Below, piece by piece: positions 28,390 to 45,992 of a stretch of 53,045 nucleotides of DNA. Source of the DNA: Xanthobacter autotrophicus. GTDB lineage: Bacteria > Pseudomonadota > Alphaproteobacteria > Rhizobiales > Xanthobacteraceae. The position numbers and the translations under genes are program-made. How positions within the stretch are numbered: position 1 is the first letter of the stretch; the number at the start of each line of letters is the position of its first letter. The notes beneath the pieces were generated by a model, which did no database searches, was not told the DNA's origin, and saw only the letters and a list, made by a program, of their open reading frames with translations. The stretch spans positions 1-53,045 of the forward strand of contig NZ_JAIVFN010000013.1 in NCBI RefSeq assembly GCF_030015065.1, read 5' to 3'.

Positions 28390-28474
28390 GCGGACGTGGC
28401 GAAACCGGTAGACGCACGAGACTTAAAATCTTGCGCCGTAAGGCGTGCGGGTTCGAATCCCGCCGTCCGCACCA
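28390..28474 (+). tRNA. tRNA-Leu (anticodon UAA)
   Basis: This is an 85-base class II tRNA with acceptor stem GCGGACG/CGTCCGC, a long variable arm (GCGCCGTAAGGCG region), T-arm GGGTTCGAATCCC and an encoded CCA end. The anticodon loop CTTAAAA gives UAA. Its 3' end is the integration site of the phage-like element. The 17-base copy at 45976-45992 is the displaced end, and the gene itself stays intact. Confidence 0.97.
28458..28474. repeat. attL core, 17-bp direct repeat
   Basis: TCCCGCCGTCCGCACCA forms part of the T-arm, the acceptor stem and CCA of tRNA-Leu. It is identical to 45976-45992. The flanking bases differ on both sides, so 17 bases is the exact shared length. Confidence 0.95.
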
Positions 28475-28523
28475 TTTCAAAAAATTGTTTAAAATCAGAT
28501 ACTTAATCGTGGGTTTCGATTGA

Positions 28524-28557
28524 ATTCTGGGAAGAATTCGGGGAGAAATTCTGGGAA
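28524..28557 (+). repeat. Three arm-type repeats near attL, 12-bp period
   Basis: ATTCTGGGAA (28524), ATTCGGGGAG (28536) and ATTCTGGGAA (28548) recur at exactly 12-base steps, about 50 bases inside attL. Similar repeats lie inside attR. They are probably binding sites for the integrase arm domain or an excision factor. Confidence 0.65.
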
Positions 28558-28725
28558 ATTACGACATATTTTTGTAATTATTGCGTCGCACAATTTTGAT
28601 TGTTCTCTGTAACTGTGGTGTTGCGATTTGTGATGTTTCGCGCGAAACACCGCGCTTGGGATTAACGATTCCCCGGTATACGATTTTTGCAATGGTCGGC
28701 TGCTAAAAGCGCCGACAAAGAGAAA

Positions 28726-28748
28726 GGGCGCCGAACTAATCGGCGCCC
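28726..28748 (-). terminator. Hairpin terminator of the 38-aa gene
   Basis: The arms GGGCGCCGA (28726-28734) and TCGGCGCCC (28740-28748) flank loop ACTAA. On the - strand the hairpin is followed by TTTCTCTTT, giving an intrinsic terminator in that direction. Confidence 0.7.
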
Positions 28749-28822
28749 CTTCAGGGGGCATGTTAGGGCCTAGATTCCCGTCGCGGACCTAACCTTGCCG
28801 TCGCTCACGCGGGCTGCTTCCG

Positions 28823-28939
28823 TCAGCGACGGGGCAGTCCGCGGCAGTGCTCGCACACGCTCTCCCACCGACCAAAGCGCCGTCGCGTATAGTGCCGAAC
28901 GCGAACGGACTTGGGAAAGGTGCACTTCATACCGGACAT
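28823..28939 (-). CDS. Small Cys-containing basic protein, 38 aa
   Basis: ATG 28939 (or 28930) opens a 38-residue frame reading MSGMKCTFPKSVRV... with an Arg-rich centre (HYTRRRFGRW) and a CEHC pair near the end. The CxxC pair plus an earlier Cys suggests a small zinc-binding or nucleic-acid-binding protein. AAAGGCGG lies 6 bases upstream and a hairpin terminator follows. I do not recognise a named family. The shortness keeps confidence moderate. Confidence 0.55.
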   Translation of the reverse strand: MSGMKCTFPKSVRVRHYTRRRFGRWESVCEHCRGLPRR

Positions 28940-29246
28940 GGAAAACCGCCTTTCGACGCTAACTCCGGCATCCGGAGTCCTTCAGCACCCGGCCGAAGAT
29001 CGTAGGCAACTGTTAGACCGTTGGGTCTGCCGGGTGCCTCAAAGGAGGAAAGAGGTGATTCGCCTGTCCGAGAATGAAAATACCGCGAGATAGTTGCCGG
29101 GAAAAGTCCGCCGCTCTTTGCCGTGGGATAACCGGGGGAATGACGGGGATGATGAGGAATGTGATAAGAACAAATAGCGAACATATTCAAGCTGAAAAAA
29201 GGCGACACCGGGTGAGGGTGTCGCCTTGGCTCGGTAGACTCGTCAG
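28940..29246. other. 307-bp spacer inside the element
   Basis: It holds the terminator of the 186-aa gene (29199-29227). On the + strand there is a perfect-looking AAAGGAGG site (29040) before GTG 29055 that would encode only 12 residues. Nothing else is recognised. Confidence 0.4.
29199..29227 (-). terminator. Intrinsic terminator of the 186-aa gene
   Basis: The arms AAGGCGACACC (29199-29209) and GGTGTCGCCTT (29217-29227) form an 11-bp stem. On the - strand it is followed by TTTTTTCAG, a clear U-tract. It lies 20 bases past the stop at 29247. It is nearly identical in design to the hairpin at 29831-29858. Confidence 0.85.
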
Positions 29247-29807
29247 TTACAACAATTCCGGATACGTTGAGTATATGTTTTCCATGATTCTGTCTTTTAG
29301 AAGAAAATAAGCATCTTGCCGTCCGACCTGTCCACGAAGTGCGTGGCATATCATATCGTAATCAATGAGTTCATGTCTGATGTAGTTGCAGGTTATCCGC
29401 TTTAGAAATGACGATTCCGAATCTTGGTCGGCGACTTTTTCTATATTTCTCCGATTATAGTGCTGGATTGCAGTATCAATTAGTTCACTAAGATTGGTGC
29501 TCGGTATTTCAATCGGAATAGACGCCACAGCCTGAAGCAGGCTTTGGCGGTTGCGATTATGGCGCTCCAATGCGGACGATGAACGTTTGCTCCTTGAAGC
29601 GCGCGCTTTGGATAGCGCTTCGCGAACAAGCTCGGTTGCTTCGGCCTCTTCGATCCGGTCAAGTCTATAAAGGCGCATCTTCGGACCGGAGCGGTAATTT
29701 GGATTCGGCTTTAGCTGATCAGGGTCGCCAAGGAATTTTTGAACCATGGTGTCTGTCCAGCCACGCTCCTGCTTGAGCACGGACACTGGAATCAAAGGGA
29801 TGCTCAT
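29247..29807 (-). CDS. Uncharacterised element protein, 186 aa
   Basis: The N-terminus (MSIPLIPVSVLKQERGWTDT, then MVQKFLGDPD and MRLYRLDRIEEAE) looks like a small helix-turn-helix-type module that names a target and a variable residue set. The C-terminal half is helical and ends DRIMENIYSTYPELL. I do not recognise a named family. It is AT-richer than the host genes. It has its own terminator, so it is probably an independent transcription unit. A DNA-binding or accessory role is a guess. Confidence 0.7.
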   Translation of the reverse strand: MSIPLIPVSVLKQERGWTDTMVQKFLGDPDQLKPNPNYRSGPKMRLYRLDRIEEAEATELVREALSKARASRSKRSSSALERHNRNRQSLLQAVASIPIEIPSTNLSELIDTAIQHYNRRNIEKVADQDSESSFLKRITCNYIRHELIDYDMICHALRGQVGRQDAYFLLKDRIMENIYSTYPELL

Positions 29808-29830
29808 TGTACGACTCCCGTATTGTCAAG

Positions 29831-29858: not shown

Positions 29859-29870
29859 TCTCAAGTCAGA

Positions 29871-30251
29871 CTAGGCAGTCGGCGGGATCGGCCGCGAAGA
29901 CGCCTTTACCCTGACCACGGGGCCGCCATCTTCGATGAACCGAACGTTGTTGACGGCATCGAAAACTTCCATGAGGCCCTCATGGAACCCGGCTGCGAAT
30001 TCGTCGGATGGCTCGTAGTCGCAGGAAAACGGGGTGCCTCTGAAGTCCGCTTCGTCGTAGTGAGCCTCGACAAACGCCGCCTTCAGGGCGGCAGAGTCGA
30101 TAGGACCGTGGAGCTTGGACATGACCAGAAGGTCGCGCCAGTCTTCCACCTTATTTGCCCACATGCGTCCGGCCTCAAGGCCGTCTGCGTGCTCTTGCTG
30201 TTCGTGCTTGGCCTTCAGATTGCGGAGACGGGCGATATTTTCAGAAGTCAT
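29871..30251 (-). CDS. Uncharacterised acidic element protein, 126 aa
   Basis: The N-terminal helix (MTSENIARLRNLKAKHEQQE) is followed by an acidic region with DWRDLLVMSKLHG, then EPSDEFAAGFHEGLMEVFDAV. There is no Cys-rich motif, signal peptide or membrane helix. It sits between two other unknown genes of the element and has a hairpin behind it. No family recognised. Confidence 0.65.
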   Translation of the reverse strand: MTSENIARLRNLKAKHEQQEHADGLEAGRMWANKVEDWRDLLVMSKLHGPIDSAALKAAFVEAHYDEADFRGTPFSCDYEPSDEFAAGFHEGLMEVFDAVNNVRFIEDGGPVVRVKASSRPIPPTA

Positions 30252-30363: not shown

Positions 30364-30861
30364 TTATTCTCCTTTCACGGTTGTGGGCGCGAAGGCGTGG
30401 CGCGTTTCCTTGCTCAAGCGGGCTTCGATGCCCCGCAAGCGCACGATGTCGCGCAATGCTTGTTTCTTGGCCTGGGGATCGCTCAGGTCTGCCTCTTCAA
30501 GGCGCGCGATCTCCTTTGCGATCTCTTGCAACTTGAACTGGTTGATCAGCCCTGCCAGCGCCTTGGCGCTGTCGATCAGGGCGTCAACCATGCGCTCGGC
30601 ACGTCCGAGGGAGCCGCGATACTCGGTGCCCCAATCCTCGCGCCATTCCGGGTCTTCGTCGCGTGAGAGGTCGGGCATGTTGATGCCGACGCTATCGAGC
30701 GTTTCGGTGATGAATGACGTTTCACCGGCAAGGGGCTGCTCATCATAGAAGGTCGAAAACGCTCCGGGCTTGTAGCTCGTAGCCTGATCGGGGGCAGTTT
30801 TTGCCTCTTTGCGAAGTCGGGCGCGGTACGCCTTTTGGATTTCAGCTCGGGTGCGTGCCAT
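30364..30861 (-). CDS. Uncharacterised element protein, 165 aa
   Basis: The N-terminus is basic (MARTRAEIQKAYRARLRKEAK). A central acidic stretch (DLSRDEDPEWREDWG) leads to a long helical C-terminus with EIAKEIARLEEADLSD. An in-frame ATG 12 bases further upstream (30873) is possible. A 20-bp perfect palindrome (30892-30911) lies about 30 bases before the start, a good place for an operator. Function unknown. Confidence 0.65.
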   Translation of the reverse strand: MARTRAEIQKAYRARLRKEAKTAPDQATSYKPGAFSTFYDEQPLAGETSFITETLDSVGINMPDLSRDEDPEWREDWGTEYRGSLGRAERMVDALIDSAKALAGLINQFKLQEIAKEIARLEEADLSDPQAKKQALRDIVRLRGIEARLSKETRHAFAPTTVKGE

Positions 30862-30933: not shown

Positions 30934-31275
30934 TTAGATGCCGAAGGCATCACGCCATCCTTCCATGTCGGCGCACATGCGTTCCCGCTCGCTTCTGCCG
31001 TCGAGGTCGTCGAGCGTGACACTGCGCTGTTCGGCGACGGCTTCGTCGATGGCGCCTTGCAGGTCGGCGACGAAATCGTCGTCCGGCTCCGATGCATCGT
31101 CGGGAGGTGACTCGGACACCTGGGGAGTAAGAGCTTTCGCGGCCTTCTGCCGCTGATAGTAACGGGCCGCTCGCTCGCGCCAGCGGCGCCGCCGTTCCTC
31201 TTCAGGAAGTGCGGCATTGCGCTTGCGGTCGTGCCTTTTCCAGCGTTCGCGCTGTTTCGTCGGATCAAGTGCCAT
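30934..31275 (-). CDS. Uncharacterised basic element protein, 113 aa
   Basis: From ATG 31275, MALDPTKQRERWKRHDRKRN begins a strongly basic N-terminal half (RRRRWRERAARYYQRQK) joined to an acidic C-terminal half (PPDDASEPDDDFVADLQ). This charge layout suggests nucleic-acid binding with an acidic interaction tail. An upstream in-frame extension to 31380 covers repeats and is unlikely to be coding. No family recognised. Confidence 0.6.
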   Translation of the reverse strand: MALDPTKQRERWKRHDRKRNAALPEEERRRRWRERAARYYQRQKAAKALTPQVSESPPDDASEPDDDFVADLQGAIDEAVAEQRSVTLDDLDGRSERERMCADMEGWRDAFGI

Positions 31276-31352
31276 TCTGCGCCTCTTCGTCGTGTTGGGC
31301 GCACCCCAATATAGCGTCGAGTGAGGCGGAGCGTTTCGGGAAAACGACAGGG

Positions 31353-31442
31353 GAGTGATTTTCTCACTCCCTTGTCTCACTCCACCTCACTCGACGTTCT
31401 CACTCCTCTTCACTCCGCCTCACTCATTGGCGGGGAGTGAGG
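31353..31442. repeat. Iteron-like CTCACTCC array
   Basis: Six direct copies of (C/T)TCACTC start at 31363, 31376, 31386, 31399, 31409 and 31419 (steps 13, 10, 13, 10, 10). Inverted copies (GAGTGA) lie at each end, near 31354 and 31435. The cluster lies between two - strand genes. The helical spacing suggests a row of protein-binding sites, such as iterons or a multi-site operator. Confidence 0.7.
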
Positions 31443-31628
31443 ATTGCAGGCGTGCCACCACGCGCGCGCCACGTCCGGAATGATGCCCCTGGGCCAAATA
31501 TCGGCGCGTTCGCCAAGCGCCAGAATGATCTCGTCCCGGTCAATCCGGCCGGTGCGGGGGTCTGGTTTCAGAAGAGAGAGAAATTCGACAAGGTTGTTAT
31601 AAGAAACATCGTCGATATACGCAGCCAT
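31410..31628 (-). CDS. Small uncharacterised element protein, 72 aa
   Basis: ATG 31628 follows GGAGGTGCCGAT, a strong ribosome site that decides the start. The sequence begins MAAYIDDVSYNNLVEFLSLL and includes DPRTGRIDRDEIILALGERAD and an ARAWWHAC segment. It is short and acidic with no known domain. Its 3' end overlaps the CTCACTCC array. Confidence 0.62.
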   Translation of the reverse strand: MAAYIDDVSYNNLVEFLSLLKPDPRTGRIDRDEIILALGERADIWPRGIIPDVARAWWHACNPHSPPMSEAE

Positions 31629-31958: not shown

Positions 31959-32528
31959 CTAGAACGTTCCCCATGCTTCCGGTCTGTCATTCTCACTCTC
32001 CGGATGTTCTCCAAACCAAGGCCCGCCTTCGGTTTCGAGAAGCCTCATCCAATCAAGCGCGGTTCGCCCTTCCTGTCGTGTCCAAGTCCGGCGTGTGCGC
32101 ACGCCCATGGCTGAAGCCATCTTCGCCTGGGATGGCGCCTTGCCGGTACGCGCGATGAAATCGAGATAGACGAACCGCGCCAGGGCGATCTCTTTCACGC
32201 GGGGCCGCAGGCGTGCGCGAAGGTGGTTTGTGCTTCCGGTCGGTGCTGGTGCCAGAAGCCAAACCTTTAGGGCGTCGATATCTCGCCGATAGCGGCTAGG
32301 ATCGAATGACGTGACCGCTGGCAGGCGTTCGGCCTTCAGTCGGCTCCGTCTGGCCTGTTCATTTCGAGCCTTTCTGGCGCGCTCCTGAACGATATTTTCG
32401 GCGCGGTTCGCAGCAATATGAGCGTCGCGCAGGCAACTGCGTCCGTAACGTCCAGAGCGGATGGCGTCGAAGAGAATTTTTTTAAGAAATTCGCGCGCTG
32501 CGGCGCGATCTCCGCTATAATCATCCAT
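31959..32528 (-). CDS. Uncharacterised basic element protein, 189 aa
   Basis: From ATG 32528 (an upstream in-frame ATG at 32543 is possible), MDDYSGDRAAAREFLKKILF begins an Arg-rich helical protein. The C-terminal part contains ARTGKAPSQAKMASAMGVRT, which reads like a helix-turn-helix, followed by a Trp-rich end (GPWFGEHPESENDRPEAWG). DNA binding is likely. A replication initiator or regulator is possible given the adjoining structured region, but no family is recognised. Confidence 0.65.
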   Translation of the reverse strand: MDDYSGDRAAAREFLKKILFDAIRSGRYGRSCLRDAHIAANRAENIVQERARKARNEQARRSRLKAERLPAVTSFDPSRYRRDIDALKVWLLAPAPTGSTNHLRARLRPRVKEIALARFVYLDFIARTGKAPSQAKMASAMGVRTRRTWTRQEGRTALDWMRLLETEGGPWFGEHPESENDRPEAWGTF

Positions 32529-32740: not shown

Positions 32741-34600
32741 TCAGGCGAGTGCTCCGTTGGGGCGACGCTGCCGGCGCATTTCCTCGATGATGGTGTCACG
32801 CACCATGCGTTGCATGCCGGTTGTCACCTGCTTGGCGAGGTCCGCGTTCTGCGCGTGCGAACCGCCGTTCGCGTTCACATGCACCGTAGGCGCGAAGTTG
32901 ATCGAGGGTGCGGGCTGGGCAGGGGCGATGTTGATAGAGGGCGCGCGGATACTCTTCAACACGTCATTCGGCACGATGCTGCCGGACCTGCCGGGCGAGA
33001 ACAATTCCGGTCCCTTCTCTCCGACGAGATAGGACTTCCCGGAGGCAACGTCGCCACCACCAGCACGGGCGCCGCCGAAGCCGGAGAAGAGCGCGCCGAC
33101 AAGGCCGGTCCCGGTGCTGCCTCCGAAGAGTCCAGCCAACGGCCCGCTACCCAAAAGCGCGGCCTGCAAGCTCGCCTCGATCAAGCGTTGAATGAGATTG
33201 TCCAGGGCGTCATTCACGGTCTGAGTCCCGGTGAGAAGTCCGGAAAGCGAAGACGTAAGCTCCTGCCCTGCGAAGTCTTGAAGCTCACGGGCCTGATTCA
33301 TCTTCACGCGTGCGTTTTCAAGATTTGATGCCGCCGTGGCATAGGCGCGGCTTTCCTCATCGATCCGCGCTTTAATCTCCGGAGAGACTTCAACACCGTC
33401 CCGTCGAGCCTGCGCCAGAAGGTCGGTTTCCTTCCGCAAGCGGGCGGCCTCAAAGGCGGACTTGCCGAGGGCGGCCTGTTCCGCCTCAAGCGCGGCGATC
33501 TCGTCGCGGACCTTCAGCACGTCCGCATCAAAGCGCACGCCCCCGGTGATGCCGATCTTTTTCGTCGTCACCGGGGGCGTGTATTTCGGGGGCGTCCAAA
33601 GCTCCTGCCCATCGGTCTTGAACCGCTCACCAGCGTTCAAGCGCTTCGCCAGTTCGGCGCGGGCGCGGTCCATCTCGTTTTCGATGGGCTTTACATCCGG
33701 ATTGCTGCCCCCAAGCCGGAAGTTTTTCCAGAAATCGAAACCGCCAACGCTGTTCATGAACTCCTGCACCTTCGTTGCGAAATCATCGAATGCGATTGCA
33801 GTCGAGACGATGCCGCCCTTCAGGCGCGTGCCAATGGTGTCTGAGAGCTTTTGAAAAGCTTTGTCGATCTCGGCACCCTTGGCGATAATATCCCGGTCCA
33901 GCACCACGCCAGCACCACGGGCGTCGGCCTGAAGCTGCTGAAGGCTCTTTGCGCTCGAGTCCAGGAACCGAACGAATTGCTCGCCACCAGTCCCGCCGAA
34001 CACCTCGTCTGCAATGCGGATGGCCGGCGCAGTCTCGAATTTCTTCAGACGTGCGATGATCTCGTCAAAGAGTGCGACGGGGTTTTTCAGCTTCTCTTTC
34101 AGTTCATCGGCGCTGTATCCGAGGCGCTGAAAAGCCTCCGCAGAACTGCCCTTCCCGGTGAGAACGAATTCGTCAGCACGAAGCTGCATTTCCTTCAGGC
34201 CGTCCGTCAGGGCGTCGATGCTCACGCCGCTTTGCTTCGCGGCGTAGTCGAGGGCCTGAAACTGTTCAACATCGATACCGGCGCGCTGCGCTTCACCCTT
34301 CAGTTCTGCGAGCGAGCGCGTCACGTCGCGGATGACGTTGGGGATCTCCGAGGCGCCACCAATGGCAAAACCGCCAAGCAAACCGCCTGCGAACGCGGCG
34401 CCGATGCCCTTGATGCTGCCTGAAACTTTCTCCGCAGCGGCGCCCATGCTGGTCTCTAGGCGTTGTTTGGCACGTTCCGCACGCTTTTCCAGCGTCCCAA
34501 GGTGCTGGTCGCCGGACTGGGCAGCACGGCGGAAGCCGCGCTCAAGTGTCGAAGTATCGACACCAAATCCAAGTTCGAGTTTAGCGTCGTTTTCAGCCAT
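32741..34600 (-). CDS. Phage tail tape measure protein
   Basis: This 619-residue protein would set tail length. A coiled-coil N-terminus (LGTLEKRAERAKQRLE) precedes a hydrophobic Gly/Ala segment (about 65-85). A long helical middle follows. The C-terminus has the typical GKSYLVGEKGPELFSPG motif of lambda-H-like proteins. From the usual ~0.15 nm per residue a tail near 90 nm would be predicted, an inference only. In most phages tail-tip genes follow; here short unknown genes follow instead. Confidence 0.9.
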   Translation of the reverse strand: MAENDAKLELGFGVDTSTLERGFRRAAQSGDQHLGTLEKRAERAKQRLETSMGAAAEKVSGSIKGIGAAFAGGLLGGFAIGGASEIPNVIRDVTRSLAELKGEAQRAGIDVEQFQALDYAAKQSGVSIDALTDGLKEMQLRADEFVLTGKGSSAEAFQRLGYSADELKEKLKNPVALFDEIIARLKKFETAPAIRIADEVFGGTGGEQFVRFLDSSAKSLQQLQADARGAGVVLDRDIIAKGAEIDKAFQKLSDTIGTRLKGGIVSTAIAFDDFATKVQEFMNSVGGFDFWKNFRLGGSNPDVKPIENEMDRARAELAKRLNAGERFKTDGQELWTPPKYTPPVTTKKIGITGGVRFDADVLKVRDEIAALEAEQAALGKSAFEAARLRKETDLLAQARRDGVEVSPEIKARIDEESRAYATAASNLENARVKMNQARELQDFAGQELTSSLSGLLTGTQTVNDALDNLIQRLIEASLQAALLGSGPLAGLFGGSTGTGLVGALFSGFGGARAGGGDVASGKSYLVGEKGPELFSPGRSGSIVPNDVLKSIRAPSINIAPAQPAPSINFAPTVHVNANGGSHAQNADLAKQVTTGMQRMVRDTIIEEMRRQRRPNGALA

Positions 34601-37975: not shown

Positions 37976-38069
37976 TCCTAAAACTCCAATTCCACTGAGA
38001 CTCGCGCAAGCCTGCCCGCGCCGGTCCCTAGTCAATAGTGAGAAGTTTTTCACCACCCCCGGGGTTACA

Positions 38070-38096
38070 CTATTGTACAATAAGTCAATATTGACT
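38070..38096. promoter_or_regulatory. Two adjacent 12-bp palindromes upstream of the connector gene
   Basis: TATTGTACAATA and GTCAATATTGAC are both perfect, 3 bases apart, in an AT-rich patch between the HNH-kinase gene and the connector gene. They are likely operator or promoter elements for the connector-terminase-tape measure transcript. Confidence 0.6.
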
Positions 38097-38110
38097 GACA
38101 TAATTCATCG

Positions 38111-39145
38111 TCACTCATCTTCACTTGGGATCACGTCTGATTCGTCGAGCGTGATGGTGTCGAGGTCCATGAGGGCGCGACTGATCGTTCGTGAGCGGAT
38201 ACGTTCGCCGGGATCAGAGAAGAGACCTTCAACGTCTTCGGTGTGGTGCATGTCCATCGGCTGGGCACGCTTGCGTATTGGTTTACGATCAATGTCCGAG
38301 CTTTGGTTCGCCTTGCGCCAGTCGAGGAACGATTGTGCTTTTCCCTTCACAGCCTCGGCATTCTTTGCGAACCACTCGCGTGCAAGCTCGATATGCTTGT
38401 CTCGACAGTGTGCGCGTCGAGGATCATTGGTGACGTTGGTGATGCACTCATCAAGAGTTGCCGGCATGACGATCATGCGGGCGTTCAGCTTACGGCACCA
38501 TGTGGCGCGTGCGGCTGGATCAGGGTCCGCAGTGATGAACCATGCACGCTTGTAGCTGTTGCGCTCACCAAGCATTCGCAAGGCTCTGTTCCTGATTTCC
38601 AGGGCCTCACGGGCGAAGCTGCCAGGGGCTTCATAGAGGGCCGTGCCTGCGAGCTTTGTCATGATGGTGGGCGTATCGATGACGATATCGTCGGGGCCGG
38701 CGCGTTCGGCCACATATGTGGATTTGCCGGAACCTGGGGCACCAGCAACGATGGTGACGGCGCAGGTGGGCGGACGGTCAATAAAGGGGTGTGCAAGCGG
38801 GTTACTACCGCTGCGGTGCTCTTCAGACTGCTTTCGGCTGGAATGGCACCGGACACAAAGCGGTTGCCAGTTCTCACGCTGCCAGAACAGGTTGCTGTCG
38901 CCGCGATGGGGGCGAATGTGATCCACCACAACGGCCTTGGCGCCGCAGGAGCACATGGGATGCTTCAGGAGGAAACCGGCGCGTGCTCGATCCCATTTCG
39001 TCGAATATCCACGCTGGCGAGCATTCGGGCGGTTCTGATCAGACTTAGCCTTACGGGCGCGGTCGCGAACGATCTGACATTCGCACTTCATCCCGTAAGG
39101 AACGATCTTGCCACATGAACAACGCCTGGGTGCCGCGAATGCCAT
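38111..39145 (-). CDS. HNH endonuclease fused to a P-loop kinase-like domain
   Basis: The product is 344 residues from ATG 39145 (ATG 39199 is possible). A Cys-rich N-terminus (Cys9, Cys11, Cys21, Cys23) is followed by an HNH domain with CSCGAK (65-70), DHIRPHRGD with His76, Asn92, and CVRCH (97-101). A P-loop domain follows: TIVAGAPGSGKST (131-143) and DIVIDTPTI, as in AAA-type polynucleotide kinases. HNH proteins near terminases aid packaging in HK97. A joined nuclease and kinase could cut and then phosphorylate DNA ends. The fusion is seen directly; its activity is inference. Confidence 0.85.
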   Translation of the reverse strand: MAFAAPRRCSCGKIVPYGMKCECQIVRDRARKAKSDQNRPNARQRGYSTKWDRARAGFLLKHPMCSCGAKAVVVDHIRPHRGDSNLFWQRENWQPLCVRCHSSRKQSEEHRSGSNPLAHPFIDRPPTCAVTIVAGAPGSGKSTYVAERAGPDDIVIDTPTIMTKLAGTALYEAPGSFAREALEIRNRALRMLGERNSYKRAWFITADPDPAARATWCRKLNARMIVMPATLDECITNVTNDPRRAHCRDKHIELAREWFAKNAEAVKGKAQSFLDWRKANQSSDIDRKPIRKRAQPMDMHHTEDVEGLFSDPGERIRSRTISRALMDLDTITLDESDVIPSEDE

Positions 39146-39269
39146 AGTATTCCTGTTGAAATGAAAAGATGTGGCCTTGTCACCTTGACCCTTTGACAAA
39201 CGTCATTCCGGGGGCAGGGAGGTGACTTTCCGCTATTCGACTAGCCACGTCGCCGTCATGGAGTGCCCC

Positions 39270-39839
39270 CTAAAGGTTTTTCAGCGCCTGAAGTCCGGCG
39301 CGGTCGAAAGTGGCGCTCAATGCCTCTTCGGCGCGCTCATCGTCTGTCGGTTCGTATCCGGGCTGGGTGCGACGCCAGACCTGCATTGCGTGTGCGATCT
39401 CGCGCGGCGTGGCGTTCCAGGTGGATTCGGGCGCCCAATGGAGCACACCAGTCGCAAAGCCGAAGAGTTCGGCGAGCGTCCGGTTGAATTTCATGGAAGG
39501 GCCGGACGCATTGGACGTGTTCGGCTTCTCATCCGGATCAATGCCGGTGAGGTGCAGCCCGAAAATGTAGAGGTCGAGGGCGACGTGTTCGACACGCTTG
39601 CGAAGGGGCTGGGGGCCGAAGGCAAACCACGCCAGGGCGTCCCTGCGCTCGTCCTCATCCTCGATCCCGTGGGTGAGCATGTCGGTGATGACGCTGACGT
39701 TGGATTTCAGCACCTTGCCGCAGAAATCCACGGGCTCGCCGTGGGCCTCGGAAATCTTCAGCGCGCATCGCAGCGTCGGTCGAAGCCGGACGGTGGTGCC
39801 GTCCAGCTTCAGAGTCGTGGTTTCGTCGAGAAAGCGCAT
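39270..39839 (-). CDS. Probable phage tail assembly chaperone-like protein, 189 aa
   Basis: The N-terminal half starts MRFLDETTTLKLDGTTVRLR and has LRPTLRCALKISEAHG, a pattern of tail assembly chaperones. The C-terminal half has LFGFATGVLHWAPESTWNAT followed by PREIAHAMQVWRR, resembling the short GTA-type chaperone in which a Trp-rich motif precedes a TPRE helix. Its start overlaps the stop of the preceding gene by one base. The assignment is tentative. Confidence 0.6.
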   Translation of the reverse strand: MRFLDETTTLKLDGTTVRLRPTLRCALKISEAHGEPVDFCGKVLKSNVSVITDMLTHGIEDEDERRDALAWFAFGPQPLRKRVEHVALDLYIFGLHLTGIDPDEKPNTSNASGPSMKFNRTLAELFGFATGVLHWAPESTWNATPREIAHAMQVWRRTQPGYEPTDDERAEEALSATFDRAGLQALKNL

Positions 39840-40225
39840 CAGGCAACCGGCCGGGCGACTGCATCGCCCTTCACCAGCACGGCGCCGGCTGCAATGCTGG
39901 TGCCGCTGTTCTTCGTGATGACGGCGCGCAGGTAGCGCTTGAAGCCGCGATAGCCGACCTTCACCACGCTGTCGGCCGCGAGGCTGGTCGGATAGGCGCC
40001 GTGAAGGTCCGCAGCGGCCACGTCCGTGAAGTCGCCGGGAACGTCCGTGTCACTTTCCTGAAGCTTCACGGTGAAGGCGCCAGCGCCGACGATGGCGCCG
40101 GTGTTCACCACCAGCACGGCGCTGTTGAAGCCGCGAAGGTCGAGGGCCGCGCCGGTCACGGTCGCGGCGAGCACGGCGGGGCTGATCGCCAGCACCGTGC
40201 CGATATTGTTCACGAGGTCACGCAT
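39839..40225 (-). CDS. Phage structural protein, 128 aa, function unknown
   Basis: The sequence is Ala/Val/Gly-rich with repeated beta strands (NSAVLVVNTGAIVGAGAFTV, KLQESDTDVPGDFTDVA) and ends GAVLVKGDAVARPVA. Such proteins often lie after the capsid gene in HK97-type phages and may be head decoration or tail-tube components. No specific family can be named. It follows the capsid gene after 13 bases. Confidence 0.7.
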   Translation of the reverse strand: MRDLVNNIGTVLAISPAVLAATVTGAALDLRGFNSAVLVVNTGAIVGAGAFTVKLQESDTDVPGDFTDVAAADLHGAYPTSLAADSVVKVGYRGFKRYLRAVITKNSGTSIAAGAVLVKGDAVARPVA

Positions 40226-40238: not shown

Positions 40239-41825
40239 TCAAACGTTCGGCTTGATGCGCAGCTTCTTGATGGCGGCAGGCTGGATCACGCCAGCGCCGA
40301 CGCGGACGGTTGCGTGAATGCGCGTCTCGCCGAATTCGGCCCGGACGTAGGGATTCACGAGCGTCGAAAGCGAGCCGCGATCAATGATCCGATAGGCCGT
40401 CGCGATGTCGCCGAAGAGAATCGGGAAAGCGTCGGCTTCCGGGTCCTGCATGTCGGGGACTTCCACCACACGCTGACCAAGGATGGTTTCCGGCTGGCCT
40501 TCCTGAAAGGACGGTTGCCACAGCGACAGGCCGTCCGCCGTCTGCCAGCTTCGGATTGTCGCCAGCGTGGTGCTGTTCATCAGCCAGATGCCACGCTGGC
40601 GATATGCGGCCGGAAGAGCGTATTTCAGCGCGACGAAATCATTCGGATCGAGAGCGTTCAGCCGTATGGAATCGAGCGCGGTCACGTTCGGGTCGGAGAG
40701 CAGCCCCATGGGCTGAAGCACGCCGTCACCATTGAGGAACGCGGCGCCTTCCTTCTTGCCGAAGTCCTCGGAGAGAGCGAGATTGACTTCGGCGAGCGCG
40801 GCGCCGGCCGAATCCGCGAGAAGCTGGTTGCTGATATCGACGTGCGTGGTTAGTTCGCGCACGGGGATTTCAAGCTGGCCGAAGCTGGGCTCGGAACCCT
40901 CGGAAGCCTGAAGCTCGCCCTTCCACTTGGCGTTGGTGATGCCGGTTCGCTTCGGATAGATGACGCTCGGCGAACTGGTGGGTCGCACGCTGGCGTACGC
41001 ACGGATCGGCGAGAATTCCACGAGGTTGCGGACGAACTCGGCGGACACCTCGGCGGGGGCGAAATAGCCGCCCATGGTGTCGGTCGAAACCTGAAGGGTC
41101 TTCAGTTCGTCGGCCGGCGCCGCATTGCCGAAGCGCAGATAGGTCGCGAACGCCTTCTGTTCGGCGGCCTTGGTCCCGTCGGCGCCCTTGCTGGTGATGA
41201 TGCCAGGGCGGCTCAGGCGGTTCTGAATCTGTGCATTGGTGGCCGCGATCTTGGCGAGGTCCGCCTTGATGCCGGAAATCTCGGTATCGTAACCGGCCAT
41301 CTTGGTTTCCAGGGCGGACAGGTCCACCGTGTTGGTATCGTCGTGTTCGGTATTCAAATCGTCCACTTCAGTTCCCTTTGCAGATTTCGTTTCGAGGATG
41401 CGAGCGCTCCCGTGCGACGGCACGGGGACAACCGAGATTTCAACGAGGTGAATCTTGGAGAAGACGCGGCCACCTTCAGGTCGGGCCTTCATTTCGTGCG
41501 GGGCAGGGCGGTTGAAACCCATGCTCAAGCCGGTGAGCTTGCCGGCCTTTACGGCGGCATGAACGCGCCGGGCAATCGAGTTGCTGGCAATATCCAGCAC
41601 GCCTTTCACGATCAGTCCGAGGTCGGTTTCCTCGGCTGAAACCCAAGTGCCGATGCGCTGCGCTGTGTCGTGCTGGTAGAGGATCGGAAGGCCGGTGAAG
41701 TCGCCGATAGCGCCCTTCTCGATCACGTCGCCTGCGCCATCGGGAAGGCCAAACACCCACGCGATGCCGGAGATTTCGCCCGTGGGCTGCGCCGAAAACG
41801 CGGCTTTGGTTTCAAGCCGGTTCAA
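40239..41825 (-). CDS. Fused HK97-type prohead protease and major capsid protein
   Basis: The product is 528 residues. Residues 1-150 form the prohead protease with His52 (LYQHDTAQ), Ser101 (LTGLSMGF) and Glu129 (VEISVVPVP) as the likely catalytic set. A linker/coiled-coil delta-like region (about 165-205) joins the capsid domain (about 215-528) with YFAPAEVSAEFVRNL, a VPMPxx-like strand region and IPVRELTTHVDISNQLL. The start overlaps the previous gene by 4 bases. In most HK97 phages these are two genes; here they form one frame with no stop, so cleavage would have to be autoproteolytic. Confidence 0.92.
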   Translation of the reverse strand: MNRLETKAAFSAQPTGEISGIAWVFGLPDGAGDVIEKGAIGDFTGLPILYQHDTAQRIGTWVSAEETDLGLIVKGVLDIASNSIARRVHAAVKAGKLTGLSMGFNRPAPHEMKARPEGGRVFSKIHLVEISVVPVPSHGSARILETKSAKGTEVDDLNTEHDDTNTVDLSALETKMAGYDTEISGIKADLAKIAATNAQIQNRLSRPGIITSKGADGTKAAEQKAFATYLRFGNAAPADELKTLQVSTDTMGGYFAPAEVSAEFVRNLVEFSPIRAYASVRPTSSPSVIYPKRTGITNAKWKGELQASEGSEPSFGQLEIPVRELTTHVDISNQLLADSAGAALAEVNLALSEDFGKKEGAAFLNGDGVLQPMGLLSDPNVTALDSIRLNALDPNDFVALKYALPAAYRQRGIWLMNSTTLATIRSWQTADGLSLWQPSFQEGQPETILGQRVVEVPDMQDPEADAFPILFGDIATAYRIIDRGSLSTLVNPYVRAEFGETRIHATVRVGAGVIQPAAIKKLRIKPNV

Positions 41826-42136
41826 GCAGCCGCCCAGCGAATCTTGTCGCCCTTGTTCGCGAGAATCACGCGATCGGCGCCCGCATAGACGCGGTACATC
41901 GGGGTGTCTGCGGCGGCGGGATTCAGCCCGACATAGACCTTGGCATCCACAGCCGCCTGAATCAGAAATGCGGACTGCGAGCGAAGCCGTTCATTGACGT
42001 CAGGGACGGTCGCAACGTTGACGGTCGTGGCTGGGGCCGGAAGGTCTTCAGACCAAACCGCATGGCCGAAAAGGTCGGTGTTTCCGCCGATGGTGGTAAT
42101 CGAGCCGTGAAGCACGGCAATACCTGAAAAAGCCAT
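41822..42136 (-). CDS. Small phage structural protein, 104 aa
   Basis: The sequence MAFSGIAVLHGSITTIGGNT, then DLPAPATTVNVATVPDVNER, looks like a compact beta-rich structural protein. It lies between the tail chaperone-like gene and the protease-capsid gene, overlapping the latter by 4 bases. A tail-tube or head decoration role is possible. No family recognised. Confidence 0.65.
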   Translation of the reverse strand: MAFSGIAVLHGSITTIGGNTDLFGHAVWSEDLPAPATTVNVATVPDVNERLRSQSAFLIQAAVDAKVYVGLNPAAADTPMYRVYAGADRVILANKGDKIRWAAA

Positions 42137-42141
42137 TCACA

Positions 42142-42489
42142 TTACTCCTGAGTATTGGTGTTCGTGGTGTCTTCGTCGGGTTCCGGCGTGCCGTCCCAAG
42201 CGGCCGCAAGGATCTCGACTGCGAGGGTGTGAACCGACCTCAACGATGCGCCGTCCAGGTAGACGGCAATGAGGTTTGCGGCTTGTTCGTGCGACGTGCC
42301 CGCGCCGATCAGACCGTGGCGCACGGTCTCGATAAGCTCGACGTGATGGAAACGGCCGCTGACGACACGCTGCGACAACTCGCCGATGCCGATATTCAAA
42401 AGCTTTTCGAGCCGCACAATTTGCGCACTTGAAAGATTGAATTCATATTCGCCGTCGCCAAGGAAGCGTTTAATCTTGGTCGATGTCAC
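42142..42489 (-). CDS. GTA-type tail assembly chaperone (Phage_TAC_11-like)
   Basis: The product is 115 residues. KIKRFLGDGEYEFNLSSAQI, LEKLLNIGIGELSQRVV and the HHVELIETVRHGLIGAG segment match the chaperone family found in gene transfer agents and related phages. These proteins help assemble the tail tube around the tape measure. It overlaps the 70-aa gene by 4 bases. Confidence 0.82.
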   Translation of the reverse strand: MTSTKIKRFLGDGEYEFNLSSAQIVRLEKLLNIGIGELSQRVVSGRFHHVELIETVRHGLIGAGTSHEQAANLIAVYLDGASLRSVHTLAVEILAAAWDGTPEPDEDTTNTNTQE

Positions 42490-42698
42490 GCGCCGACTCC
42501 GATCTTGTCCAGATCGAGGACGATCCGGCCATCATGCTGGCGCTCAGCGTGGGGGCCGAAATCGAAAATGCATTTCCGATTTGCGGGCGGCAGGGGCGCG
42601 CCAGAGGTCGCGACGCTCTTGAGCATGGCCATGGCCTGGGAGAATGGACCGTGTGCGGCGGCAAATGCCGCCGCAATCTCAGGCAGGTTTGTCAGCAT
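42486..42698 (-). CDS. Small element protein, 70 aa
   Basis: ATG 42698 overlaps the end of the portal gene by 20 bases, and the frame ends in an ATGA overlap with the tail chaperone gene, so it is translationally embedded in the structural operon. MLTNLPEIAAAFAAAHGPFS and GRIVLDLDKIGVGA are seen. No family recognised; possibly a minor tail or head component. Confidence 0.6.
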   Translation of the reverse strand: MLTNLPEIAAAFAAAHGPFSQAMAMLKSVATSGAPLPPANRKCIFDFGPHAERQHDGRIVLDLDKIGVGA

Positions 42699-43944
42699 TG
42701 TTCTGGTCCGGAATGGTGGAAGACGTTGTGTTGGGATTGATGAATTCGTCGCCACCTTCGTAGGGCGGAAGGTTTTCCTTGGCGCGGGCCTCATTGGGCG
42801 ACAGGACGCGCGAAGAAATGAGCTTGCTGTAAGCGTCGGCACGCGCCGCGATATCCATGCGGGTGAGGTCATCCGACAGGAATTCGGCGAAGTAGGTGTC
42901 GCGCTCATCCTCGCGGAAGAGCTTCATTGCCACCTCGTTTTCCCAACGTGCAAGCCACGGACGAAGGGAATACGTCAGAAACTCCGCACCCATCTCGCCA
43001 ACGTTCGCCCACGTCCCGCGCTCAAGGTCGAAGAGCATATGGGGCGGGACACGAAAGAGGCGTGCGATCTCAGTGACCGCGAACCGGCGCAGTTCCAGAT
43101 ATTGCGCGTCGGTCGAGGTAAAGTTGAACGGGGTGAAGCCGGAGCCGCCGGGCACCATGGCAATGTCGCCGTTCTTCCGTCCGCCGACTGCCGCCTTCCA
43201 CGCTTCCTTGAGGGCCTTAAGCTGATCGGCCTTCAATCCGGGATCAACAGTGACAACACCACTTGGCGCAGCGCGGTTGCGGAAGAGTGCAAGCCCGTGC
43301 TCTTCCAGGATCAGCGCCAATTCGATGGCGTGTTTGCCCTGCTGGATCGGCGAGGCGCCGATCAGACCGTCAAGCGACGGTCCCATGAGGTGAAAGATCT
43401 CATGGGGCTGATAGATGACTTCGCGATTGTCGCCGTGGCGGACCTTGTAGAGCGGCGCATAAGTGATTTCGTCGAGTTCAACGGTGACGGCGGTAGGCGG
43501 GATGCGCCACAACTCGACGAAGTCGCCGGAACGATTGATCAGCGCGAAGCCGTTTCCGTAGAGCAACGCGTCGCGCGTAAGCTGTTCCTTGAAATTCTGT
43601 GCTGAATAAACGTCCGAGGAACGATTGCGCAGGACATTGAAGAGCGGGTGTTCTGTTGCTCGATCCTTGGAGCCATCTTTGCCGCGCTTGTAAGTGATCA
43701 GTGGAAGCTGCCCAACGGCCTCCGCAATCGACTGAACGGCGCACCGGACGGCGGTGCAGTTCATTGCGGTGGCTTCGTTGACCGTAACCTGAAGCGTCCC
43801 ATTGTCCGGAAGCGTGGCGCCGATCAACTGCGAAAGCCACGCGGCATCGGTGCTGGTGGCCGGTGTCGGCGCCGGAAGAGACGGCGCGGCCTTTATTTCG
43901 GTCACCTGCTGGCGGGGGAAGCGCCAGAAATCGAGAATGCCCAT
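42679..43944 (-). CDS. HK97-type portal protein
   Basis: The product is 421 residues. Recognisable portal features are NCTAVRCAVQSIAEAVGQLP, the LLYGNGFALINRSGD segment, HEIFHLMGPSLDGLIGASPI and the FAVTEIARLFRVPPHMLFDL region with its ERGTWANVG loop. The portal forms the dodecameric ring through which DNA enters the head. It is the first structural gene after the integrase. There is no terminase gene upstream of it, unlike the usual order. Confidence 0.94.
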   Translation of the reverse strand: MGILDFWRFPRQQVTEIKAAPSLPAPTPATSTDAAWLSQLIGATLPDNGTLQVTVNEATAMNCTAVRCAVQSIAEAVGQLPLITYKRGKDGSKDRATEHPLFNVLRNRSSDVYSAQNFKEQLTRDALLYGNGFALINRSGDFVELWRIPPTAVTVELDEITYAPLYKVRHGDNREVIYQPHEIFHLMGPSLDGLIGASPIQQGKHAIELALILEEHGLALFRNRAAPSGVVTVDPGLKADQLKALKEAWKAAVGGRKNGDIAMVPGGSGFTPFNFTSTDAQYLELRRFAVTEIARLFRVPPHMLFDLERGTWANVGEMGAEFLTYSLRPWLARWENEVAMKLFREDERDTYFAEFLSDDLTRMDIAARADAYSKLISSRVLSPNEARAKENLPPYEGGDEFINPNTTSSTIPDQNNADKPA

Positions 43945-44053
43945 TCAGAAAGAACACGTCCTATTCGCTATACCCAATACGATAACACGAATCTCGCGTG
44001 GAATAGACCGTTTCGTCGAATTAATTGAGAAAAAATCGCAGATAGCGGAGTGA

Positions 44054-44088
44054 GATTGACGGAAGCCTAGAAAGCGCCGCCGTCAATC
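44054..44088. terminator. Hairpin between integrase and portal genes
   Basis: The arms GATTGACGG (44054-44062) and CCGTCAATC (44080-44088) flank a 17-base loop in the 180-bp gap past the integrase stop. There is no strong U-tract. It may weaken read-through from int into the structural operon. Confidence 0.45.
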
Positions 44089-44124
44089 TGTGCTGATCTT
44101 GAATATTCTGCCAAGCGTTCCTAT

Positions 44125-45867
44125 CTAGGCGACGGCCGATAGTCCGAGCGACTTGCGCAATGCGTCGAGGTCCAGCCCGTCGAAGTGCAGGCTTTCCACG
44201 GCTGCTTTCATCGCCTCGATAGAGACACCATGCACATAGACCGCGCCGGCCGATTGATCGGTGTGGCCGCAGATATAATCCGCCGTCCCCTTATCCACGC
44301 CTGATTTTCTAAGTCCCGTCTTGAACGTGTGGCGGAAGCTATAGAAGTCCTTCGTCGGATCGTTGATGTTCGCGTTCTTCAGATACGTCACATTGAACCG
44401 GCGCGGGATGAACCTGGGGAAATACTGGTTCAGCGTGGCGCTACCGTTTTTCTCCGCTTCGGCCTTCGCCTTCATCCCCTGCGCATACCAAATGGGGAAA
44501 AGGTGCGTCTCGCCGGCCTTCCGGAGCGCAGCCACACGGCGCTCTAGACCAAGCTCGATCAGGGTCGAATGCACCGGGACAAGGCGCCTCGATCCTCGGT
44601 TTTTCGTCTCTTCCTCGACGCTGAAGCACAACACGCCACGCTCATGGCGAACGCTATCGAGCTTCATTTGCGCGGCCTCGGACGGGCGCAGGCCGGAAAA
44701 CAGGCCGATCAGCATCGCCCATTGAGATTCGTCGAGGGTGCCGGCCGGCGCGAAGAGGGCAGGGGCGAAGAGCTTCGTGAGGTCACCAGGGGTGAAATCC
44801 TCGCGCGGCGCCTTGCCGGCCTTCTCTGCCGTCTCGACACGGATGCCAGTCGCCGGATTGTCCGGGATCAGGTCATTGCTCGCGCACCAGCCTAGAAGCG
44901 TCTTCAACCGCGACAGGTTCTTATCGTTCAGGGTCTTTGCGTCGAGGCAGGGAAAGGGTTCCTTGCGCGCCTTGTTCGCTGCGATAGCATCTAGGAGCGT
45001 CATTCCGGGAAAGCGCTTCGTGGCGCTGCTAGGCGTTTCTAGCAGGGTGTCTTTGAACCGCACCGCATGCCGGCGCGTAATGGTGTGCACCGGCATCGGC
45101 TCGCCCATGGCTTCCTCAAACTGCCGCACAACGGTTTCGTATTCGCGTGCCGTGGGGCCGCTTGGCCGGCGCTCAGCGAGGAAGCGGGGCAGGATTTCCG
45201 ACAAGGGTAGGAGGCTATCGGGTCCTAGGATGCGTGCGGAGGTCGCCGGCTGGGCTTCAGCGGCGGGGTTCACCGGTGTGAGGTCGGCAGGAATAGGCGG
45301 GTCCGGCTCGCCTTCGTCGCGCAACATCTCAGTCTCGATGGCGACAAGCTCAGCGCGTGCCAGGACGCGGACAGTCGCATTCCATCCGGAGGTGCCAGGA
45401 GCGTCCTGAAGATTGCCGCTCTTGCTCGCCCATTCCAGTGCCAGGGCGATGGGTGACGGTAGGGGATCGAAGATGCGGCCTGCCGCTAGGTCACGAAGCT
45501 GTGAGACGTAATCTTCGTCCGGGAAGCCAAGGCCGATGGCCGGTGAACCTGAGTCGCGAATTTCGGTGTCGAGGGCGAGCCGGCTTTGAAGATGACGGGT
45601 GCCGATCTCGGTGGGTGACAGGAGCCGCTTGGGGGAAGGTCGAGGCGCAGGGGCGGGCTTGCCGGTGAGCTTGGCCTTAGCAGCGTCGATGTCTTGATAG
45701 AAGCCATCCAGAACACTGGGCAGTCGTCTAACGGCCTGGGCATGATCCGCGCCTAGCGCCTGTGAAAACTCCTTCTTACCGAGGATCGGCTGTAGCTCTT
45801 TTGGCACGGCCAAGCGGGCGAAGTACCTGCCGCCCTTAGACTGTAAATTGCTACCGTGCCGAGCCAT
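44125..45867 (-). CDS. Tyrosine recombinase / phage integrase
   Basis: The product is 580 residues from ATG 45867, which follows GAGGAAACGGC. The N-terminus (MARHGSNLQSKGGRYFARLA) and the VPKELQPILGKKEFSQALG pattern match the DUF6538-type arm domain. The catalytic domain has GLFSGLRPSEAAQMKL (Arg), EETKNRGSRRLVPVH, FYSFRHTFKT, a GHTDQSAG box and the VYVHG nucleophile Tyr. The usual box II His is Tyr in FYSFRH. It is adjacent to attR and should mediate integration at tRNA-Leu. Arm-type repeats overlap its upstream region. Confidence 0.92.
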   Translation of the reverse strand: MARHGSNLQSKGGRYFARLAVPKELQPILGKKEFSQALGADHAQAVRRLPSVLDGFYQDIDAAKAKLTGKPAPAPRPSPKRLLSPTEIGTRHLQSRLALDTEIRDSGSPAIGLGFPDEDYVSQLRDLAAGRIFDPLPSPIALALEWASKSGNLQDAPGTSGWNATVRVLARAELVAIETEMLRDEGEPDPPIPADLTPVNPAAEAQPATSARILGPDSLLPLSEILPRFLAERRPSGPTAREYETVVRQFEEAMGEPMPVHTITRRHAVRFKDTLLETPSSATKRFPGMTLLDAIAANKARKEPFPCLDAKTLNDKNLSRLKTLLGWCASNDLIPDNPATGIRVETAEKAGKAPREDFTPGDLTKLFAPALFAPAGTLDESQWAMLIGLFSGLRPSEAAQMKLDSVRHERGVLCFSVEEETKNRGSRRLVPVHSTLIELGLERRVAALRKAGETHLFPIWYAQGMKAKAEAEKNGSATLNQYFPRFIPRRFNVTYLKNANINDPTKDFYSFRHTFKTGLRKSGVDKGTADYICGHTDQSAGAVYVHGVSIEAMKAAVESLHFDGLDLDALRKSLGLSAVA

Positions 45868-45879
45868 GCCGTTTCCTCG

Positions 45880-45914
45880 ATTCCGGGAAGGAATTCCGGG
45901 AAGAGATACGGGAA
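45880..45914 (+). repeat. Arm-type repeats near attR, upstream of int
   Basis: ATTCCGGGAA (45880), ATTCCGGGAA (45893) and a weaker ATACGGGAA (45906) lie between the integrase start and attR. They match the repeats inside attL in sequence and orientation. They could also allow the integrase to control its own gene. Confidence 0.65.
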
Positions 45915-45975
45915 AGAGTGAGCAATAGCAACGTTTCTGAAGGATTTCAGGGGCTTCTCGGGCGATCGATTTTCC

Positions 45976-45992
45976 TCCCGCCGTCCGCACCA
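45976..45992. repeat. attR core, 17-bp direct repeat
   Basis: This copy is identical to the tRNA-Leu 3' end at 28458-28474. Beyond it no further tRNA sequence is present, and the next gene is an ordinary host-type gene, so this is the right junction. Confidence 0.95.

Follow-up and report, generated by a model that had tools for sequence, protein, structure and literature searches.

The window (the whole stretch of DNA analysed, 53,045 nucleotides, from a Xanthobacter-like bacterium) contains a compact phage-derived element with its own head genes and a tail tape measure, raising the question of what kind of element this is and how it could form a particle. The original prediction had left three options side by side, namely a satellite, a producer of gene transfer agent (GTA)-like particles and a rearranged defective prophage. 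An element with its own head and tail-length ruler, and apparently with neither tube nor tip, gives the appearance of parasitising other viruses; we consider it probable that this is a capsid-forming satellite with a tail ruler of its own and with tube and tip taken from a putative helper.

The element occupies positions 28475-45992 (17,518 bp) and is delimited by 17-bp copies of the tRNA-Leu(taa) 3' end. This tRNA is the sole one in the window, and both copies of the att core read TCCCGCCGTCCGCACCA. GC content per kilobase is 0.51-0.64 inside the element and 0.63-0.77 outside it. The final ~770 bp are probably not genic, since ORFs 28495-28761 and 28927-29349 are non-coding according to the codon model. 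The boundary features are as follows:

28390..28474, plus strand: intact tRNA-Leu(taa), the attachment gene (ARAGORN; Rfam RF00005)
28458..28474: att core, 17 bp, tRNA 3' end (exact direct repeat with 45976-45992)
45976..45992: distal copy of the att core (exact direct repeat with 28458-28474)
28475..29246: probably non-coding, AT-richer end (negative codon score of its ORFs; GC 0.51-0.60)

All genes of the element lie on the minus strand in open reading frames (ORF list). The first, absent from the original account, encodes a tyrosine integrase, so that integrase and flanking att repeats are both present. It is followed by the portal, a GTA-gp10-like chaperone, a protease-capsid fusion, a decoration-like protein and a second chaperone, and then by the HNH/ATPase gene, head-tail connectors, tail completion, head closure, the small and large terminase subunits (TerS and TerL), the tape measure and short genes of no assigned function. 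Capsid, protease, portal, connectors, TerS, TerL and HNH are thus all the element's own, and Pfam and PHROG matches bear out the earlier claim of packaging, capsid and tape measure genes on one strand. The portal does come first and the terminases do precede the tape measure, as had been described, but this order is not the anomaly it was taken for, being normal in the family to which the element belongs.

44125..45867, minus: tyrosine integrase with DUF6538 (PF00589, PF20172 and phrog_1 on 44125-46005; start from the codon model)
42679..43944, minus: portal (PF04860, E=4e-93)
42486..42698, minus: small protein of 70 aa, no assigned function (codon model; kept in C29 and G399; no family match in Pfam or PHROGs)
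42142..42489, minus: tail assembly chaperone 1, GTA-gp10 family (PF11836, E=1.1e-19; AF2 pLDDT 85)
41822..42136, minus: u104, 104 aa, no assigned function (present in C29 and G399 only)
40239..41825, minus: prohead protease fused to an HK97-fold major capsid protein (PF04586, PF05065)
39839..40225, minus: decoration/cement-like protein (Bbp16-like), beta sandwich (AF2 pLDDT 89; weak 8cjz and 3j4u matches)
39270..39839, minus: tail assembly chaperone 2, TAC6 (PF09550, E=2.5e-6; alignment)
38111..39199, minus: HNH endonuclease and P-loop ATPase fusion (phrog_4581, labelled terminase small subunit)
37685..38101, minus: head-tail adaptor Ad1 (phrog_40, E=2.5e-18; PF05135, E=3e-10)
37291..37674, minus: neck or HK97-gp10-like protein (PF04883 on 37291-37845; phrog_5)
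36866..37294, minus: tail completion protein or tail terminator, PF11367 family (E=1.8e-7; no PHROG match)
36537..36869, minus: head closure protein (PF05521 on the longer ORF 36537-37274, which the codon model splits; phrog_25, E=4e-5)
36169..36540, minus: terminase small subunit (phrog_83, E=4e-23; PF05119, E=1e-14)
34608..36212, minus: terminase large subunit (PF20441, PF03354)
32741..34600, minus: tail tape measure protein, 619 aa (phrog_10574, E=3.6e-112; PF10145, E=1.6e-6, slightly below the family cut-off)

PADLOC, run on 8 ORFs, saw no defence genes among them and gave just weak HNH-type matches to the HNH/ATPase gene.

Searches of the element's ORFs with Pfam and PHROGs (and with NCBIfam for ten ORFs) found no tail tube, hub, tip or fibre, the tail-tip profiles being weak in that, among 4 controls outside their build set, phi2LM21 alone matched. 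The same searches found no lysis, primase or repressor gene, and the complete set expected of a temperate siphophage (tail tube, tip, lysis, replication) is absent from the Pfam and PHROG matches. The earlier statement that lysis, replication, repressor, tail-tip and fibre genes are not recognisable therefore stands, and remote-homology checks likewise identified no tip, lysis or replication gene in the element. Two proteins were considered as the missing tube and rejected. The Pfam text describes the GTA-gp10-like protein as tail tube, but its AF2 model is alpha-helical with no tube barrel, and Foldseek returned nothing at E<=0.001 for it (best E 2.2). The AF2 model of the Bbp16-like protein has unrelated beta sandwiches as its top Foldseek matches, the phage decoration protein 8cjz ranking 17th, and its weak matches are to 8cjz and the cementing protein 3j4u. 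As the former is helical and the latter a decoration-like sandwich, neither resembles a tube. Downstream of the tape measure just 4.3 kb are left, with a longest ORF of 194 aa, and the short genes found there are:

31959..32528, minus: d189, basic 189-aa protein (homologues in G399 and G403; no significant family in Pfam, PHROGs or NCBIfam), possibly a DNA-binding regulator as judged by eye
31410..31628, minus: d72, 72 aa (found again downstream of the tape measure in relatives; labelled in 21/51 IMG/VR loci showing a tape measure)
30934..31380, minus: d113, up to 148 aa (also in the X. autotrophicus element; family matches at chance level only)
30364..30861, minus: d165, 165 aa (codon model; relatives in G142 and G332; labelled in 2/80 IMG/VR loci)
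29871..30251, minus: protein of 126 aa, no assigned function (codon model; no Pfam or NCBIfam family, PHROG matches at E 0.12 and above only)
29247..29807, minus: 186-aa protein of uncertain coding status with weak DUF2293 likeness (PF10056, E=0.048, below cut-off; codon score -1.2)

Whether this gene content is peculiar to one copy was addressed in surveys with TAC6 as the family marker. The same core order was sought elsewhere and found, both in other genomes of the bacterium's order and in 78 of the 80 IMG/VR loci kept, many of which are partial. All 47 IMG/VR loci that extend 3 kb or more beyond TerL have a tape measure, and none of the 23 with at least 2.5 kb downstream of the tape measure has a gene of at least 500 aa there; in ordinary prophages and phages a gene of at least 822 aa lies downstream of the tape measure (6/6 readable cases). 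Some relatives encode a tube-like protein (13/80) or a gpM-like minor tail protein (18/80), so that the borrowed set appears to vary, and some encode a likely HUH-type or Rep3 protein. A closed circular Paracoccus plasmid of 17,494 bp has the genes for head, chaperones, terminator and TerL, as well as a tape measure of 842 aa and a Rep3 protein, and no tail-tip gene was either annotated or matched by profiles in it. Two plasmids found via TerL alone differ: Methylorubrum pB146-3 is more loosely related, and on R. mucosa pTT14-8 an IS21 is present and no tape measure is labelled. The agreement among ten compared regions is partly by choice, since nine were chosen for TerL preceding the tape measure; the tenth (G193) has a different gene order. 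A scan of genome contigs gave one locus (L034), a close relative carried by X. autotrophicus DSM 432. When the chaperone alignment was searched against 385 genomes of the class, no match outside the window's genome was strong (6 other genomes, best E 1e-9). The element belongs to a widespread, hardly described family, and no account of such a head-and-ruler family was found in the literature searched.

Integration and size are equally consistent. Att repeats in tRNA genes bound 14 integrated members (9/9 in one set, the S. meliloti member and 4/9 loci in another), which measure 16,865-18,452 bp (mean 17,735, SD 504). In the latter nine-locus set an integrase is labelled in 5/9; the five loci without att are G211, where the stretch is cut at its integrase end, and G202, G326, the second locus of G142 and G368, where no integrase is labelled. 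In G403 a 31-bp tRNA repeat was taken as att in preference to a 36-bp one lying outside the tRNA. The sister genomes G406 and G401 have an empty tRNA-Leu site, the flanks lying 90 and 116 bp apart. Tape-measure length shows no trade-off with the length of the rest of the element. Ka/Ks relative to X. autotrophicus is 0-0.32 across 13 genes; one small gene has a value of 0.43. Together with the open frames, this agrees with the earlier argument against decay. For the tape measure Ka/Ks is 0.067 relative to a second copy in the same genome, on C29, a contig that stops just past the tape measure; the comparisons with C29 leave out HNH, and the rest of this copy was searched for and not found.

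The integrase and att repeats, the empty site in two sisters, the constant size, purifying selection and a closed circular plasmid with the same gene set thus favour the satellite among the options first proposed. Under this reading the integrase would excise the element at the tRNA-Leu repeat, the excised circle would then be copied, and the HK97-type head, portal and terminases would load the 17.5-kb DNA into a presumably small head. The element's own chaperones, tape measure and tail terminator would determine how long the tail becomes, and tube and tip would be supplied by the helper on which the element would depend, giving a particle with a satellite head and a chimeric tail.

Alternatively, a capsid-forming satellite might rely on tails made entirely by the helper, in which case its own tape measure and chaperones would act only to inhibit helper tail assembly or would be relics. 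This we regard as unlikely: cf-PICIs are described, in the available part of PMC10690885, as requiring helper tails only, and the head-bearing elements in G404, G407a and G347 have no tape measure label, but the tape measure is kept in 47/47 evaluable loci, alongside two chaperones and the terminator, and under the purifying selection noted above.

It is very improbable that the element is an autonomous siphophage of very small size, with genes for tube, tip, lysis and replication that have diverged beyond recognition. Several short genes without assigned function, and the tube-like and Rep-like proteins of some relatives, would suit such a phage; the 4.3 kb past the tape measure, with no ORF longer than 194 aa, and the want of any gene of at least 500 aa there in 23/23 evaluable relatives argue against it.

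Equally far-fetched is a GTA satellite, with its own head and ruler, that draws tube and tip from the resident GTA of its host rather than from a phage. A strong PF13550 match occurs in 14/14 genomes of the genus searched, mostly in a frame of ~1300 aa or more, and in G402 it is surrounded by a cluster (G402:C1:3496443-3517162) that we take, from gene order and PF13550, to be the Xanthobacter GTA-type cluster. The hub is present in 19/20 carriers and, in one sample of the order, in 16/17 carriers versus 221/340 non-carriers (Fisher p=0.008, uncorrected for ancestry), and chaperone 1 belongs to the GTA-gp10 family. G182, however, has the element without a hub, and the hub association may stem from ancestry; the idea that the tail comes from the resident GTA is a weak lead. 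We know of no described parasite of GTAs, and a literature search listed none. The element itself is not a GTA, as had been entertained: it shares an HK97-type head with the GTA-type cluster, which is separate in the genus and in which tube, distal and hub genes are present and no integrase is labelled, whereas the element is mobile, with an integrase, att repeats and sister genomes in which the site is empty. Decay or rearrangement of a prophage, although modules are missing in this copy, is scarcely credible given that many genomes share this content and size, and given purifying selection, exact att repeats, the closed plasmid form, the want of a long gene past the tape measure in the family (0/23) and the failure to find any complete relative that would reveal a deletion here.

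Alphaproteobacteria would gain a satellite type found both integrated and as closed plasmids. The compact family retains the measuring kit (chaperones, terminator and tape measure), while a recognisable tube is missing from most loci and hub or fibre genes were recognised in none. This allows a direct test of which components of a tail have to fit the head and which ones may come from elsewhere. Among known systems, cf-PICIs are defined by an AlpA-type regulator and a primase/replication module, and no such family was detected in the element's ORFs with Pfam and PHROGs. Compared by description, as far as the available accounts go, cf-PICIs resemble the element in integrase, att, own protease, capsid, portal, connectors, TerS, TerL and HNH, and in a small genome with no hub, fibre or lysis gene. 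The element differs in that it also encodes a tape measure, a tail terminator and a pair of tail chaperones, in family size (~17.7 kb versus a cf-PICI average of 14 kb quoted by PMC10803314) and in its alphaproteobacterial host, outside the main cf-PICI taxa of the available part of PMC10803314. The Streptomyces satellites MulchRoom and MiniFlayer also have their own terminases, portal, capsid and adaptor, and the accessible text of PMC10690885 reports a primase for neither; it mentions no tape measure or chaperone, and MulchRoom takes its tails from a helper whereas MiniFlayer has its own short fibres. The first satellites shown to carry a tape measure of their own were the Vibrio cholerae PLEs, in 2026; among these, PLE11 builds chimeric tails using its own TMP and TAC (PMC12987554, as excerpted). 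The element shares the tape measure and tail chaperone with PLE11, but chimeric tails were demonstrated experimentally there and are deduced from genes here; PLE11 virions hold ICP1 capsid proteins, whereas the element encodes its own head, and PLE11 carries a baseplate hub protein, of which no counterpart was found in the element. As putative tmp genes have also been mapped in some cf-PICIs (PMC12987554, Extended Data Fig. 10 legend), the element would extend an existing type of satellite.

The phage-derived element inserted at tRNA-Leu(taa) is delimited by an exact repeat of 17 bp and has a lower GC content than the sequence on either side of it.

Element, its ends and selected genes
28475-45992, all genes on the minus strand: the element, 17,518 bp
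28458-28474: 3' end of tRNA-Leu(taa), first copy of the repeat
45976-45992: second copy of the repeat
41822-42136, minus strand: 104-aa unknown protein (u104)
39270-39839, minus strand: second tail assembly chaperone (PF09550), the marker in our surveys
31959-32528, minus strand: 189-aa basic protein

In order of transcription, an integrase is followed by genes for a portal, a chaperone of the GTA-gp10 family (GTA, gene transfer agent), u104, a protease-capsid fusion, a decoration-like protein and the second chaperone, and then by those for an HNH/ATPase protein, an Ad1 adaptor, neck, tail completion (PF11367) and head closure proteins, TerS, TerL, a tape measure and short unknown genes; the last ~770 bp are non-coding by score. 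Families for tail tube, tip, fibre, lysis, primase and repressor functions were not found with Pfam or PHROGs, or with NCBIfam for ten ORFs. Gene content and search results agree with the original prediction of a compact phage-derived element; among the three readings offered there, we retain the satellite and set aside both a GTA-like particle producer and a rearranged defective prophage. The element is real and looks like a functional satellite. A strong hairpin of 13 pairs (32581-32610), between the tape measure and the 189-aa protein, possibly divides two transcripts; overall, the hairpin scan gave a count no higher than in shuffled sequences.

The element is mobile. Its site is empty in two genomes of the same genus (G406 and G401), where both flanks are present at 83-86% identity, separated by gaps of 90 and 116 bp, with an intact tRNA-Leu alongside. 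A search of 14 genomes, one of them that of the window, gave a right-flank match in every case; of the 13 other loci, only those of G406 and G401 have both full flanks. In G402 (L138 1364-1416) the left match is limited to the final 53 bp of tRNA-Leu and no tRNA was called; another element may occupy that site.

The element also belongs to a family of like elements. A second copy in the same genome (contig C29), whose integrase adjoins tRNA-Thr, has the same gene order; identity is 97% for the tape measure (518 residues) and 61% for TerL. The disparity between these values (G000:C29, L035+L036, 37577-39157; window 33047-34600) suggests a recent swap of the tape-measure region between co-resident satellites. 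The same gene set occurs in X. autotrophicus DSM 432 (L034/G399), in G403 and, with an integrase, in six genomes chosen for having TerL before the tape measure (G170, G142, G004, G182, G099 and G332). All nine members of a first set, a Sinorhizobium meliloti member and four of nine loci of a later set have direct repeats at a tRNA; the five repeat-less loci of the later set comprise a G211 stretch truncated at its integrase end and four without an integrase label. The 14 att-bounded members measure 16,865 to 18,452 bp (mean 17,735, SD 504), and tRNA-Leu, Thr, Gln, Ser and Val serve as attachment genes. Ka/Ks ranges from 0 to 0.32 against X. autotrophicus (13 genes) and from 0.067 to 0.43 against C29 (seven valid comparisons, u104 highest, an eighth being left out).

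Related remnants and modules were also seen. Integrase-like fragments, recognised by eye and with matches in C29 and G403, lie at G399:C4 145073-145701, just beyond the distal att copy (145784), and are perhaps traces of a previous occupant of this tRNA-Thr site. The window's genome carries a third head-plus-tape-measure module (G000:C35 3159-14429). Further head-bearing elements (G404:C1:4783252-4791812, G407:C34:215216-224073 and G407:C35:33964-45582) lie beside large putative primases, judged by size and mutual likeness; two are without a tape measure label, and the third combines a tape measure with a neck and a small protein resembling a chaperone.

Of 377 genomes in the order surveyed with the marker, 19 matched at E<=1e-15, including the genome that holds the window; in the class sample, matches elsewhere were weak only. 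At E<=0.01 the marker matched seven plasmid records, which place family members in Paracoccus, a different order, and none of 50,697 phage records. Relatives are encoded at 142 IMG/VR loci; among the best 80 of these, many of them partial, TerL is present in 58, a tape measure in 51 and an integrase in 32, and the core order is kept in 78. The exceptions are L191, with a ParA-type gene at the integrase place and a permuted order, and L216, whose sequence ends before the portal.

Judged from their gene content, family members that lack a tail tip appear to be complete. Plasmid NZ_CP157016.1 of Paracoccus marcusii, circular and closed at 17,494 bp, makes the strongest individual case; it encodes portal, both chaperones, protease-capsid, connectors, terminator, TerS, TerL, a Rep3 replication protein and an 842-aa tape measure that spans the record start; its annotation contains no tail-tip gene and none matched in our search. 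Within the best 80 of the 142 IMG/VR loci, 47 of the 58 with TerL extend at least 3 kb beyond it, and all 47 have a tape measure; a same-strand gene of at least 500 aa follows the tape measure in none of the 23 loci with at least 2.5 kb there. Such a gene, of 822-1551 aa, follows it in all six readable ordinary prophages and phages (G198, G126, G323, G149, G077 and phi2LM21; G217 was left out as its sequence ends too early to judge). Siphophage hub/tip profiles and one tube profile matched none of the same 80 loci, the tip profiles being weak (among four controls not used in building, only phi2LM21 matched) and the tube profile matching three of four such controls. A second plasmid form, Methylorubrum populi pMPOP02, has a MipZ/ParA gene, an annotated tail tube gene and one like gpM, and also bears an inserted Tn3. 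Loci in which a ParA/MipZ-type gene replaces the integrase (L191 5781-6407; NC_010721.1 16532-17161) look like plasmid-living forms of the same element.

Tube-like genes are present in 13 of the best 80 IMG/VR loci (12 of the 79 with capsid and second chaperone), and gpM-like genes in 18 of the 80; the number of tail parts carried therefore varies among relatives. Examples are a 177-aa tube-like gene on C35 (PF08813, below cut-off) and the gpM-like gene of G399 (PF05939, 1.8e-17). Because Pfam describes PF11836 as tail tube, the GTA-gp10-family protein was modelled; the predicted short hairpin and five helices, with no beta barrel, argue against a tube. The Bbp16-like protein is a predicted beta sandwich, for which the top Foldseek matches were unrelated sandwiches (prophage protein YomS ranked 11, decoration protein 8cjz 17) and a sequence profile gave two matches in all, both weak (8cjz and cementing protein 3j4u). 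In L234 (17635-20352, S. meliloti Ak57 pSymB) the tape measure carries a fused VanY-type peptidase domain (PF02557); its tabulation as a predicted glycopeptide-resistance gene looks wrong, since this is a phage tail gene. A gene between portal and chaperone in L177 (1191-1844) shows weak similarity to lambda tail assembly protein I (PF06805, E=0.037), and those in L214 (2842-3483) and L225 (3987-4463) are similar by eye. An H-x-H motif protein, the motif alone being weak evidence, follows the tape measure in G182 and in seven of the 12 IMG/VR loci inspected; of five scanned, that of L156 matched a G2P-type replication protein (1.9e-5, just under the Pfam cut-off) and four had no match. None was found among the called genes of the window's element.

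After excision, the head genes would probably build a small capsid for the terminases to fill, as the gene content suggests. The chaperones would load the element's own tape measure, another virus would supply tube and tip, and terminator and neck would connect tail to head; this chimeric tail we infer as probable by analogy with PLE11. A resident GTA is a weak lead as tail source. A strong match to the hub family PF13550 (E 4e-43 or better, frames of 587-1502 aa) occurs in all 14 genomes of the genus, surrounded in G402 by a cluster that, from its gene order, we take to be of GTA type. The hub is present in 19 of 20 carriers searched (G182 is without it) and in 237 of 357 genomes of the order sample, at 16/17 marker-positive versus 221/340 others within that sample (groups of 17 and 340 counted by hand; Fisher p=0.008, kinship ignored).

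Literature on capsid-forming islands, tape measures, Alphaproteobacteria, GTAs and chimeric tails, covered in part, yielded no account of this satellite family, and a prior description is possible. PMC10803314 names the main taxa of cf-PICIs, the capsid-forming satellite class, without including Alphaproteobacteria, and gives their average size as 14 kb. The legend of Extended Data Fig. 10 in PMC12987554 marks putative tmp genes in some cf-PICIs, and PLE11, a Vibrio cholerae PLE satellite treated in the same article, is an experimental precedent for a chimeric tail.
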